Shown here: piece after piece, positions 36,837-41,132 of the stretch | Numbering within the stretch: the first letter of the stretch is position 1 | Layout of the letters: each line of letters begins with the position of its first letter | From: an uncultured beta proteobacterium | Lineage (GTDB): Bacteria > Pseudomonadota > Gammaproteobacteria > Burkholderiales > Rhodocyclaceae | DNA length: 52,148 nucleotides | Direction of reading: 5' to 3' | Assembly: GCA_903959855.1 (NCBI GenBank) | Contig: CAJBYR010000157.1 | Location: forward strand, 1-52,148 | The notes under the pieces: generated by a model | Databases searched by the model: none | What the model was told of the DNA's origin: nothing | What the model saw: the letters and a program-made list of their open reading frames with translations, nothing else | Made by a program: the position numbers and the translations under genes

Positions 36837-36875
36837 CCACGCGTCGGGATCAGTGCGATCCCGAGGCGTGGTTTT
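36837..36875 (+). terminator. Rho-independent terminator of the PhoH gene, inside the dnaB 3' end
   Basis: Two stacked stems, CCACGC/GCGTGG outside and TCGGGATC/GATCCCGA inside with one mismatch between, close loop AGTGC and run into TTTT on the plus strand. The hairpin spans the last codons and stop of the convergent dnaB gene (stop at 36850-36852), so the DNA serves both as dnaB coding sequence and as terminator for the opposite gene. The minus-strand run after it lacks a T tract. Confidence 0.75.
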
Positions 36876-38244
36876 CAAATCGCGTGTATTCACCAATGAA
36901 GGTGAGTCGAACGGTGCCAACGGGGCCGTTGCGGTGCTTGCCGATAATGGCTTCAGCGGTACCCTTGTCCTGCGTGTCCGGCTTGTAGTATTCCTCCCGA
37001 TACATCATCAAGATGATATCGGCATCCTGCTCGATGGCGCCGGATTCGCGCAAGTCGCTCATCAGTGGCCGCTTGTCATTGCGCTCCTCCACCTTTCGCG
37101 ATAACTGCGAAAGGGCGATGATCGGCACCTGGAGTTCCTTCGCCAGCGCCTTGATGGAGCGCGAAATCTCGGAAATCTCGGTGGCGCGGTTCTCGCCATC
37201 GCGATTGGAGCTCATCAGTTGCAGGTAATCGATGACGATCAGCCCCAGCTTGCCGAATTGCCGATGCAGGCGGCGCGCGCGCGCGCGCAGGTCGGTGGAA
37301 TTGATCGCGCCGGTCTCATCGATATGGATCGGCGCCTCGTGCAGTTTGCCCAGCGCTACCGTCATGCGATCCCATTCGTCATCGGTGAGCCGCCCCGTGC
37401 GCAATTTCGACTGGTCAATGCGCCCGACGGAGGACAAGAAACGCGTGGCCAGTTGCGGACCCGACATTTCCAGGCTGAAGATGGCCACCGGCAAACGCTG
37501 CTCGACGCCGACATACTCGGCAATATTCAATGCAAATGCGGTCTTACCCATCGCAGGCCTGCCCGCCACGACAATCATGTCACCCGGTTGCAGGCCGGAG
37601 GTCATCCTGTCCAGGTCGACGAAGCCCGTGGCAACGCCGGTAATGTCCGACTGGCTATCGCGTGCCAACAACGATTCCATGCGCTCCACCACTTCGCCAA
37701 GTAGTGGCTGGATCGCGACAAATCCGCCATTGTTGCGGTTGCCGGCTTCGGCGATCTGAAAAATCTTCTGCTCGGCCTCGTCGAGCAGGGTTTTAACCTC
37801 GCGGCCGGCAGGATTCAGCGCATTGCCGGCAATCTCGTCGCCCACCGTGACGAGTTGGCGCAGGATGGCTCGCTCGCGCACGATCTCCGCATAGCGTCGA
37901 ATGTTGGCCGCAGACGGCGTCGAATTGGCGATCTCGCCGAGGTAGGCCAGACCACCGGTCTGATCGACTTCGTTGGAGGCCTCGATCGATTCGTAGACCG
38001 TGACCACGTCAGCGGGGCGACCGTTCTGAATCAGTTTGCCGATATGGCGGAAGATGCGACGATGATCATCGCGATAGAAATCCGTCTCGCGGACCACATC
38101 GCCGATTCGGTCCCACGCCGCATTGTCAATCAGCAGACCACCAATCAGCGATTGTTCGGCCTCGATGGAATGCGGGGGAAGCTTTAGCGCGGCAACCTGG
38201 GAATCCATTGGTTGCGGGGGGTTGAAGGCGCGAACCTGTGCCAT
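36850..38244 (-). CDS. dnaB: Replicative DNA helicase DnaB
   Basis: A 464-residue hexameric replicative helicase. The N-terminal domain (LPPHSIEAEQSLIGGLLIDNAAW, residues about 22-120) precedes the RecA-type ATPase: Walker A VVAGRPAMGKTAFALNIAEYV near residue 225, Walker B LGLIVIDYLQLMSSN, and QLSRKVEERNDKRPLMSDLRESGAIEQDAD with the arginine finger region. GGAG lies upstream of the ATG. A promoter and an array of DnaA-box-like sequences lie directly upstream. In many betaproteobacteria dnaB follows rplI; here it is elsewhere, next to polysaccharide genes, and rplI lies 3.2 kb away. Confidence 0.96.
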   Translation of the reverse strand: MAQVRAFNPPQPMDSQVAALKLPPHSIEAEQSLIGGLLIDNAAWDRIGDVVRETDFYRDDHRRIFRHIGKLIQNGRPADVVTVYESIEASNEVDQTGGLAYLGEIANSTPSAANIRRYAEIVRERAILRQLVTVGDEIAGNALNPAGREVKTLLDEAEQKIFQIAEAGNRNNGGFVAIQPLLGEVVERMESLLARDSQSDITGVATGFVDLDRMTSGLQPGDMIVVAGRPAMGKTAFALNIAEYVGVEQRLPVAIFSLEMSGPQLATRFLSSVGRIDQSKLRTGRLTDDEWDRMTVALGKLHEAPIHIDETGAINSTDLRARARRLHRQFGKLGLIVIDYLQLMSSNRDGENRATEISEISRSIKALAKELQVPIIALSQLSRKVEERNDKRPLMSDLRESGAIEQDADIILMMYREEYYKPDTQDKGTAEAIIGKHRNGPVGTVRLTFIGEYTRFENHASGSH

Positions 38245-38268
38245 CGATGTCTCCGAAGTGAAGCCGAG

Positions 38269-38297
38269 AGTCTAGCCCCTGGACAGCGGAGTGTTAA
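38269..38297 (-). promoter_or_regulatory. Promoter of dnaB
   Basis: On the minus strand TTAACA (38292-38297) and TAGACT (38269-38274) are 17 bases apart, a good sigma-70 arrangement 25 bases before the dnaB ATG. The -35 abuts the tandem DnaA-box-like array, placing that array where an activator or repressor would act. Confidence 0.6.
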
Positions 38298-38349
38298 GTG
38301 GACAAGGTGTGGAAATGCTGTGGGTAAGCTGTGCAGAAGTGGTGGAATA
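38295..38349 (-). repeat. Five tandem 11-base repeats resembling DnaA boxes
   Basis: Read on the minus strand, five 9-mers begin exactly 11 bases apart at 38349, 38338, 38327, 38316 and 38305: TATTCCACC, TTCTGCACA, TTACCCACA, ATTTCCACA and TTGTCCACT. Against the DnaA box TTATCCACA they match 6, 7, 8, 7 and 7 of 9 positions, all in the same direction. The array fills the gap between the upstream gene's stop and the dnaB -35. Same-direction boxes with a two-base gap are the arrangement that lets DnaA-ATP bind cooperatively at oriC. Confidence 0.55.
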
Positions 38350-38352
38350 CGT

Positions 38353-40170
38353 TCAGTTCACAGCGGGACGGTATTCGGGAATACGGTACCGGAGTCCGTC
38401 CTTTACTTCCGACTCGTCGCGGACATGCTGCGCCAACCAGATTTCCAGCTCGTGGAGCCAGGCAGCGTCAGGTATCGCCGAAGGTTTAGCGATCCGAAGT
38501 TTGGGATGCGGTGTCGGCAACGTCGCCTCGCCATCTGCCAGCAATTCTTCATAGAGTTTTTCGCCAGGACGAAGCCCAGTGAACTCGATCCGAATATCTT
38601 CGTCGCTGAAACCCGAAAGGCGAATCATGTCGCGCGCAAGATCGACGATCCGAACCGGTTCCCCCATATCGAGCACAAAGACCCGACTCGCTTCGGCATC
38701 GCGCATCGCCATCAGGCCCGCCTGCAGAACCAACTGTGCGGCTTCTGGAATCAGCATGAAATAGCGAATGATCTCGGGGTGGGTCACCGTGACCGGACCT
38801 CCCCGCGCAATCTGTTCGCGAAACAGTGGAATCACGCTACCCGAGGACCCCAATACATTCCCGAAGCGGACCATCACGAAGCGCGTGGACTGCGTTTGGC
38901 TCTGCACTGCCTGGCAAACGATCTCGGCCAAGCGCTTGCTGGCGCCCATGACATTGGTCGGATTGACTGCCTTGTCGGTCGAGATGAGAACGAACTCCCC
39001 CACTCCGGCAGCGATGGCCGCACGCGCGACGGTCAAGGTACCCTGAACATTGTTTTTCACCGCCTCCCACGCATTGGCGGACTCCATCAGCGGAACATGT
39101 TTGTAGGCCGCCGCATGAAAGACCACGTGGGGTTGATAGGCTGAAAAAATCACCTGCATGCGACTGGCATCCTTGACGTCCGCAATGATGCACGTCACCG
39201 GCCGGTCGGCGAACTCCTGCCCGATGGTATAGAGCGCAAACTCAGACTGCTCGACGAAAATCATTCTGCCTGGATGGAAGCGCGCGATCTGACGGCATAG
39301 CTCCGCGCCTATGGAGCCGCCGGCGCCGGTTACCAAGACGGTTTTGCCAAGAAGCAGTTCCGCCAGTCCAGCTTCGTCAAGTTCCACACGATCGCGGCCG
39401 AGCAGATCCTCCAGTTCGACTTTGCGAATGGCGGAAATGGCCACACGACCGGTAAGCAGATCGTCAAGCGTAGGAACCGTCATCGCTGCAAGCCCGGCGT
39501 ACGCGATCGCTTCCGCAACCCGGCGCCGCTCCGCGACCGACGCTGTAGGCATCGCAACGATCGCCGAACGCGCTTCGGATCGCTTTGCGTAGGCGCGAAT
39601 GTCATCTATCCCGCCAAGGATCGCAACGCCGCCCAACTGGCGCCCTGCCTGGCCCGCCCCAGGCTCGACGATACCGACCACGCGCCAAACCTGACTGGCT
39701 TCCAATTCCTTGATCAGGCGCATCGCCATCTCACCACTGCCAACAATCAGCACAGGCGTGCCTACGCCGGTTCGACGCAGGAAGAGATGGCCATCTTTCC
39801 ATGCGCGGTAGGTGAAGCGCCCGCCCCCCATCAGCAGAACCAGAAGCAGCGGGCTGAGAATGAACACCGAACGCGGCACCAGCGAATGCTGGGCCATGAC
39901 CAGAGCAGCAGGCGTTGCCAACCCGGCGACGCCGCTCGCCAACAAGATGCGCTTGAGATCGGGAACGCTGGCGAATCGCCATATCCCTCGATAGAGACCG
40001 AAGGCATAGAACACGACACCCTGAACCGGCGCAACGATCCAAAGCGACGACCACATCGACATACGGAACTCGACAGGTATGTCGAGGTTGAAGCGAAGCC
40101 AGTACGCACCGAGCCAGGCGAGGACAACCATTGCCAGGTCATTGAGGAATATCAGAATAGCGCGATTCAT
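38353..40170 (-). CDS. Membrane nucleoside-diphosphate sugar 4,6-dehydratase, WbpM/CapD/PglF-like
   Basis: A 605-residue protein. The N-terminal part has four predicted membrane spans (LIFLNDLAMVVLAWLGAYWLRF, LWIVAPVQGVVFYAFGLY, ILLASGVAGLATPAALVM, SVFILSPLLLVLLMGG). A CoA-binding-like Rossmann domain (TPVLIVGSGEMAMRLIKEL) follows, then the SDR domain with KTVLVTGAGGSIGAELCRQI at about 285 and catalytic STDKAVNPTNVMGASKR. In this group Met replaces the usual SDR Tyr (NPTNVMGASK), as seen here. The enzyme makes UDP-4-keto-6-deoxy-hexosamine for O-antigen or capsule. ATGA overlap with the WecA-like gene. Confidence 0.92.
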   Translation of the reverse strand: MNRAILIFLNDLAMVVLAWLGAYWLRFNLDIPVEFRMSMWSSLWIVAPVQGVVFYAFGLYRGIWRFASVPDLKRILLASGVAGLATPAALVMAQHSLVPRSVFILSPLLLVLLMGGGRFTYRAWKDGHLFLRRTGVGTPVLIVGSGEMAMRLIKELEASQVWRVVGIVEPGAGQAGRQLGGVAILGGIDDIRAYAKRSEARSAIVAMPTASVAERRRVAEAIAYAGLAAMTVPTLDDLLTGRVAISAIRKVELEDLLGRDRVELDEAGLAELLLGKTVLVTGAGGSIGAELCRQIARFHPGRMIFVEQSEFALYTIGQEFADRPVTCIIADVKDASRMQVIFSAYQPHVVFHAAAYKHVPLMESANAWEAVKNNVQGTLTVARAAIAAGVGEFVLISTDKAVNPTNVMGASKRLAEIVCQAVQSQTQSTRFVMVRFGNVLGSSGSVIPLFREQIARGGPVTVTHPEIIRYFMLIPEAAQLVLQAGLMAMRDAEASRVFVLDMGEPVRIVDLARDMIRLSGFSDEDIRIEFTGLRPGEKLYEELLADGEATLPTPHPKLRIAKPSAIPDAAWLHELEIWLAQHVRDESEVKDGLRYRIPEYRPAVN

Positions 40171-41132
40171 GCCGACATCCCGGAAGCAGCCCAGCACCGA
40201 TCAATCCACACCATCAGCGTCACATGGACTCCAATACAGACCAGTACACCGACCGTCTGCCAAACGGCCGACTCGGTCAAAAGCAGCAAGCCCAGCCCGC
40301 CGCTGGCGCACATCAAACTGTATTCAGCCAATGCCAAGCGCCGGTGCGACCAACCCATTCGTACTAGGCGCTGGTAGTAATGCTGACGATGTGCCGCCCA
40401 CACCATTTCCCGCCGCACCATTCGTTTCAAGAGTGTCACCGTAGCATCAATCACAAAGGGAGCGAAGACCAGCAGTGGAAACCACAAGGGCCATTGCCCA
40501 CGCGCCACACCGGCAAACGAGAGCGCGCCCGCAAGGAACCCGAGAGGAATCGAGCCGGCGTCACCGAGAAAAACGCGGGCCGGATCGAAGTTGTAGCGCA
40601 GAAAACCCAGCGCGGCACCCATCGTCGCACAGACCAATACCGCTTCTCCGGATGCAAGCCCGAGGACGCCAAAGCCAATCACGGTCATGCCGCCCGCCAA
40701 CCCGTTGGTGCCATCCATGAAGTTATAGAGATTGGTCATCCAGGTCATTGCGAAAGCACCGGCCAACGCCAAGGGTGAAACTCCTGCGACCCACACGGCG
40801 AATCCCACGGCAACTGCGAAATGGGTACCAAATCGCAGGCTTGCAGGCAGGCCTTGCCAGTCATCGACGATCGAGAGCATGAACAGAAGGCCCGCCAGCG
40901 CCAATAGCGCCAGGACCAATGGATTCCAGACACCCGAGATCAATACCGCCAGGACGATTCCGGGAAACATCGCCAAGCCGCCAATGCGAGGCGTCGGTCG
41001 CTGATGCAAGGAACGCTGGTTCGGCCGATCCAAGGGCAAGACGTCCGAGCGCCGCAACAGCAGATCAAGAAACAACGACGTTGCCAGCGCGGCTATCAGC
41101 AGGGAAATCGTATTCTGAAAGGTCGGATTCAC
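40167..41132 (-). CDS. WecA/WbpL-like undecaprenyl-phosphate sugar-phosphate transferase, GTG start
   Basis: A 321-residue polytopic glycosyltransferase family 4 member (MraY/WecA superfamily) that would load the first sugar onto undecaprenyl phosphate. Motifs: PNQRSLHQRPTPRIGGLAMFPG near residue 38, SIVDDWQGLP, NLYNFMDGTNGLAGG, RVFLGDAGSIPLGFLAGAL and the cytosolic AHRQHYYQRLVRMGWSHRR. Ten or so hydrophobic segments are visible. The GTG start overlaps the stop of a truncated upstream frame (GTGA). With the WbpM-like gene it would start O-antigen or exopolysaccharide synthesis. Confidence 0.92.
   Translation of the reverse strand: MNPTFQNTISLLIAALATSLFLDLLLRRSDVLPLDRPNQRSLHQRPTPRIGGLAMFPGIVLAVLISGVWNPLVLALLALAGLLFMLSIVDDWQGLPASLRFGTHFAVAVGFAVWVAGVSPLALAGAFAMTWMTNLYNFMDGTNGLAGGMTVIGFGVLGLASGEAVLVCATMGAALGFLRYNFDPARVFLGDAGSIPLGFLAGALSFAGVARGQWPLWFPLLVFAPFVIDATVTLLKRMVRREMVWAAHRQHYYQRLVRMGWSHRRLALAEYSLMCASGGLGLLLLTESAVWQTVGVLVCIGVHVTLMVWIDRCWAASGMSA

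Follow-up and report, generated by a model that had tools for sequence, protein, structure and literature searches.

A phased array of weak DnaA-box-like sequences at the dnaB promoter of a betaproteobacterium: a candidate DnaA-responsive promoter

Does the replication initiator DnaA also govern the supply of the replicative helicase? The question is raised by a 52,148-nucleotide stretch of DNA from an uncultured betaproteobacterium of the Rhodocyclaceae, analysed here as a whole and referred to as the window, in which five DnaA-box-like 9-mers had been predicted on the minus strand just upstream of dnaB. All five (boxes A1 to A5) were verified at their positions with 6, 7, 8, 7 and 7 matches to TTATCCACA (Table 1). 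They share a single orientation and an exact 11 bp period that leaves 2 bp between neighbours; the units flanking the array on each side have 4 and 2 matches to TTATCCACA, and none of the five is a perfect consensus box. The original prediction also set the array ahead of a TTAACA-17-TAGACT promoter. This promoter is present and is the sole promoter consensus match in 38200-38450 (0.1 expected from shuffles), but a clear separation of the two elements did not hold up, as A5 and the -35 hexamer share base 38297. With 9 of 12 consensus positions, the strength of the promoter without a helper looks fair.

Table 1. Features of the array and promoter upstream of dnaB in the window.
Feature	Coordinates	Strand	Sequence or basis
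Box A1	38341..38349	-	TATTCCACC, 6/9 vs TTATCCACA
Box A2	38330..38338	-	TTCTGCACA, 7/9 vs TTATCCACA; consensus across the genus ATTTACACA
Box A3	38319..38327	-	TTACCCACA, 8/9 vs TTATCCACA; highest-matching of the five
Box A4	38308..38316	-	ATTTCCACA, 7/9 vs TTATCCACA
Box A5	38297..38305	-	TTGTCCACT, 7/9 vs TTATCCACA; final base common with -35
-35 hexamer TTAACA	38292..38297	-	Promoter scan
-10 hexamer TAGACT	38269..38274	-	Promoter scan; 30-31 bp 5′ of the dnaB ATG across the genus
GGAG, likely ribosome-binding site of dnaB	38251..38254	-	Read by eye from the sequence
dnaB, replicative DNA helicase	36850..38244	-	TIGR00665 DnaB, 580 bits, cut-off 385

The start codon of dnaB is the ATG at 38244 on the minus strand, and its product matches one Sulfuritalea sp. 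record at 98% over residues 179-464, another such record at 94% over the full protein and a Rhodocyclaceae bacterium record at 93%. Upstream of dnaB, and separated from it by a gap of 108 bp, is a capD-like polysaccharide gene (38353-40197, minus strand), whose product has a PseB/FnlA-type domain with scores under the cut-off. This capD-like gene is one of two genes that lie between rplI and dnaB in the window (38353-41132, minus strand); the second has no NCBIfam match at 1e-20.

The five-box array is far above chance expectation. Its five-box score of 35/45 is the top of the window on both strands, as is its three-box score, and its four-box score of 29 compares with 20 for the top unrelated site. 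None of 20,000 intergenic shuffles attained the observed five- or four-box score, and 1 Mb of first-order Markov sequence reached a maximum of 27 for five boxes and 24 for four, both below the array. When any spacing from 9 to 21 was allowed, the four-box value of the array was never attained in 3,000 shuffles. The expectation that random intergenic DNA would score lower was thus borne out by both shuffled and Markov sequence.

The 11-base phase had also been expected to persist in relatives, and it does. We sampled 31 genomes of the genus, 27 of which had a readable dnaB upstream region (G002, G021, G026 and G029 gave none), and compared these regions by ungapped anchoring with rows aligned at the -10. 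Counting boxes with at least 5/9 matches, A2-A5 are kept in 27/27 regions and A1 in 25/27, being absent in L011 and L033. A1 is the weakest box across the genus (mean 5.7/9, range 2-7). The start of A5 lies 31 bp from the start of the -10 in every one of the 27 regions, and the CAC core is found in 25, 26, 27, 26 and 23 of them for A1 to A5, respectively. Outside the -10 itself (1.92 bits), information per position is concentrated in the boxes, with 1.10, 1.63, 1.67, 1.84 and 1.75 bits from A1 to A5 vs 0.63 bits in the 11 bp preceding A1 and 0.95 bits between the end of A5 and the -10. The best four-box score per region is 25-29/36 at spacing 11 and is lower at all other spacings from 9 to 22 in 27/27 regions; of the 135 CAC trinucleotides that precede the -35, 127 keep to a single 11-bp phase. 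The gene upstream of dnaB is rplI alone in 23/27 regions, a capD-like gene in 3/27 (the window, L010 and L033) and rplI plus a C-terminal piece of capD in one (L011). Because the upstream gene varies while the array stays, the neighbouring gene does not explain its conservation. The two regions that have lost A1 are among the four with capD sequence.

Within these genomes the array is close to unique. A three-box pattern, defined as three CACA units at 11 bp, has one match per genome in 24 of the 31 genomes, all at dnaB by coordinates, and its reversed control has 1 match in total. In L011, L032 and L033 the strict pattern is broken, with four-box scores still at 25-26. Exact TTATNCACA words are barely enriched in G001 (17 vs 13 for the reversed control), thus it is the phased weak boxes, rather than single words, that distinguish dnaB. 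In the dnaA-dnaN region of the window's own genome, one box pair reaches 15 and one triple 20, compared with 22 for the dnaB triple, and the strict three-box pattern is lacking. A strict two-box pattern, TTNTNCACA-2-TTNTNCAC, gave 2 matches in the 31 genomes and none on a dnaB contig, mainly because A is the first base of A2 and A4 in most genus members.

Beyond the genus, we compared 80 named dnaB loci, which became 79 on removal of L059 (N-terminus missing) and 77 on removal of the genus members L039 and L040. A perfect TTATCCACA lies upstream of dnaB in 15/79 loci, frequently paired with another box at a spacing of 12 bp. A box pair at 11 or 12 bp scoring at least 14 is present on the dnaB strand in 27 of the 77 loci, compared with 0 antisense, 0 reversed and 1 complemented; at a threshold of at least 13 the counts are 32 sense, 1 antisense, 0 reversed and 1 complemented. 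Across 460 kb of the named loci, pairs scoring at least 14 number 39 upstream of dnaB (overlapping matches counted) vs 7 elsewhere. Partner boxes peak at -11 and +12 bp relative to the strongest box. Box periods outside the genus are 11 or 12 bp, which leaves 2 or 3 bp from one box to the next. In 28 of the 32 loci scoring at least 13, a TANNNT is placed 29-31 bp (or one unit further, 40-43) from the second box, whereas random anchors averaged 1.7 such loci and never exceeded 8. The end of rplI is 116-364 bp from dnaB in 29/32 box-positive loci and 0-989 bp in 36/45 box-negative ones, with very short gaps lacking boxes. Since the two ranges overlap widely, operon position explains little.

The box-pair trait is common to members of some lineages and missing in most lineages sampled. 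On a DnaB tree that included the window, the trait (score of at least 13) requires 9 changes, a number inflated by the placement of L075, whose long branch is meaningless (out-of-frame translation), vs a mean of 25.4 with shuffled labels (0/500 as low). It occurs in 16/18 rows placed in Comamonadaceae, in the Sterolibacteriaceae row adjoining the window, in 1/2 Sphaerotilaceae rows and in two pairs of sisters, L058 (titled Hydrogenophilales) with L054 and L109 (titled Lysobacterales) with L113. Conservation across the order was sought and not found: among 100 dnaB upstream regions, hand-picked among the matches listed as the best by DnaB match quality (215/220 genomes matched), a sense pair scoring at least 14 is absent in 92. 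The 8 sense pairs (antisense 4, reversed 0) come from 5/43 families, thus the box feature is lineage-specific; families of low DnaB identity are under-represented in this sample because regions were drawn from the best-quality matches.

A gene-blind scan of 399 Burkholderiales genomes with the three-box pattern returned 34 places in 27 genomes, compared with 1 for the reversed control. These comprise 11 places beside nrdA, 4 at dnaA-dnaN, 1 at dnaB of the window's own genome and 18 without an assigned gene, several of which are plain tandem repeats that are not DnaA-box-like. The 11 loci at which nrdA adjoins the array belong to five families (tblastn, with L261 as the query), and nine also carry the NCBIfam name ribonucleoside-diphosphate reductase subunit alpha, their scores falling under the whole-protein cut-offs because locus ends cut the genes. 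For the nine nrdA loci with an assigned start, the array is sense and within 170 bp upstream in 7, antisense in 1 and not within 170 bp in 1. Judged from this comparison, phased DnaA-box arrays seem to be a mark that dnaB and nrdA, both genes of replication supply, carry in different lineages of betaproteobacteria. The genus itself gave no match to class I NrdA in 16 genomes, and with one betaproteobacterial NrdA fragment as the query this absence alone shows nothing.

Some details of these arrays can be recorded here. In L252, L253, L254, L260, L261, L262 and L273, three sense boxes repeat every 11 bp exactly, no more than 170 bp 5′ of nrdA; these seven come from two Burkholderiales families (f5 and f13), and just 5′ of their arrays are repeats that resemble NrdR boxes. 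In L248, L249, L256 and L268 the array is near nrdA with a differing layout. The four dnaA-dnaN places are overlapping matches within one intergenic region (L263, G310:C1:29313-29419) that carries perfect TTATCCACA boxes in runs at 11-bp steps.

Taken together, the array and its promoter very likely constitute a DnaA-responsive promoter of dnaB, as a candidate read from sequence comparison, and several other roles for the boxes have to be weighed against this. They could form a sink or reservoir that titrates DnaA or exchanges its nucleotide, in the manner of datA or DARS, and lies before dnaB by chance. The boxes are clustered, as a sink would have them, and close box pairs also occur in datA and DARS (Table 1 of PMC11317965), but the 31 bp to the -10 in 27/27 genus regions, and about 30 bp in other families, is a fixed distance needed by a promoter element and not by a sink, and the array lacks a consensus box. 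DnaA titration, which the original prediction offered beside control of dnaB, is thus disfavoured, and we consider the sink improbable. The 11-bp repeats might belong to another regulator altogether. Direct repeats of 11 bp adjoining the -35 are the pho-box geometry of OmpR/PhoB-type response regulators, and the array suits that family as well. Against such a regulator stand the perfect TTATCCACA upstream of dnaB in the named loci, whose frequent 12-bp partner fits DnaA, and the recurrence of the array pattern at nrdA and at one dnaA-dnaN region, which together leave it very unlikely.

The layout also invites comparison with an origin of replication. Low-affinity DnaA-ATP arrays at E. coli oriC consist of weak same-direction boxes 2 bp apart, and the window array is like them in being weak, in one direction and spaced by 2 bp. 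A secondary origin or a displaced oriC would account for this filament layout. Unlike the oriC arrays, the window array is a promoter element without a perfect box and far from dnaA: in the complete genus genome G001, dnaA is at 101 and dnaB at 1,536,007 of 3,802,648, i.e. ~1.5 Mb apart, where an oriC is expected at or near dnaA. The dnaA-dnaN region also has boxes of its own, perfect ones included. The secondary origin was rejected on the distance from dnaA, and we give it hardly any weight.

Control of dnaB by DnaA, as originally proposed, is well supported by the comparison across genomes. Since relatives conserve the boxes, whose position with respect to the dnaB promoter is fixed, helicase production is probably coupled to the replication initiator. 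The genome's own DnaA has a GGRDHTTVLHA stretch in its C-terminal part, which we take to be the DNA-recognition signature of DnaA. As the five boxes end at the -35, several neighbouring DnaA molecules would be placed beside RNA polymerase. DnaA would bind the boxes cooperatively, as adjacent protomers, and since all boxes of the array are sub-consensus, DnaA-ATP is probably preferred over the other form; the weak boxes suggest cooperative, perhaps ATP-dependent, binding. The protomer on A5 would occupy DNA contacted by sigma region 4, so that box occupancy would set dnaB transcription and helicase supply would track how much initiator there is or which nucleotide it carries, whichever the sign. 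A stronger form of this reading is that the phased weak boxes make an all-low-affinity DnaA filament promoter with no strong anchor, in which an oriC-type array has been reused as a cell-cycle promoter and acts as a steep DnaA-ATP sensor that switches dnaB. We hold this version tentatively, as one that has somewhat less than an even chance.

Regulation of dnaB by DnaA is already known or proposed in other bacteria. M. tuberculosis DnaA binds the region upstream of dnaB, as measured both in vitro and by ChIP, and dnaB is under-expressed in a mutant whose DnaA binds this region less (PMC7738170). Caulobacter crescentus has predicted DnaA boxes upstream of dnaB, which lies within its DnaA regulon (PMC8203912). 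These species share with the window the DnaA link to dnaB and belong to different bacterial classes; in the portions of the two papers on which the comparison rests, a five-box 11-bp array fixed to the -35 is not described. The in vivo binding of E. coli DnaA is chiefly at box pairs 2 or 3 bp apart, one added base pair in a 3-bp pair greatly lowers binding, and dnaB is not among the 16 regions bound in ChIP-seq; the same paper mentions low-affinity sites at oriC (PMC11317965). The double-box promoters described there, above all nrdA, resemble the window array in placing boxes of one direction, 2 or 3 bp from each other, at a replication-related gene; a weak box is frequent in such pairs (PMC11317965). 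The window array has the features of such promoters, namely near-TTATCCACA 9-mers in the same orientation, 2 bp apart and at a fixed promoter position, and differs in having five boxes rather than two, in lacking a perfect consensus and in its gene, dnaB. A literature search that covered titles and the openings of abstracts, with few subscription journals, did not find DnaA boxes at dnaB in betaproteobacteria. What appears to be new is the five-box, 11-bp, promoter-fixed array, its genus-wide conservation and a double-box layout related to it in Comamonadaceae and other groups.

The sign of the DnaA effect on dnaB is a separate matter. Activation has about an even chance, and under-expression of dnaB with the weaker-binding DnaA variant of M. 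tuberculosis argues for it. Repression of dnaB at high DnaA-ATP is somewhat unlikely, and the fair strength of the unaided promoter means that a repressor role also fits. By analogy, a concentration-dependent switch could be an alternative, as at nrdAB, an established DnaA target in E. coli (PMC8203912; PMC11317965, section 5) that is repressed by high DnaA-ATP and activated by DnaA-ADP or low DnaA-ATP (PMC8203912). What decides between the activator and repressor roles of DnaA is a question raised in a 2021 review (PMC8203912), and the fixed geometry of the array, which can be mutated, would allow the action of DnaA multimers on RNA polymerase to be tested cleanly. Should DnaA indeed use an oriC-like array to set the transcription of dnaB, helicase supply would come under the control of the initiator in addition to helicase loading.

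Another arrangement of boxes was seen away from dnaB. Upstream of an ORF that by eye resembles xseA, L005 1499-1535 (G000:C88:50706-50742) has an inverted repeat made of two perfect DnaA boxes that converge, and a third box lies 12 bp further; this may be either a DnaA site or a hairpin. Another convergent pair of perfect boxes, with spacing identical to that of the L005 pair, is present at G001:C1:1122484-1122506.
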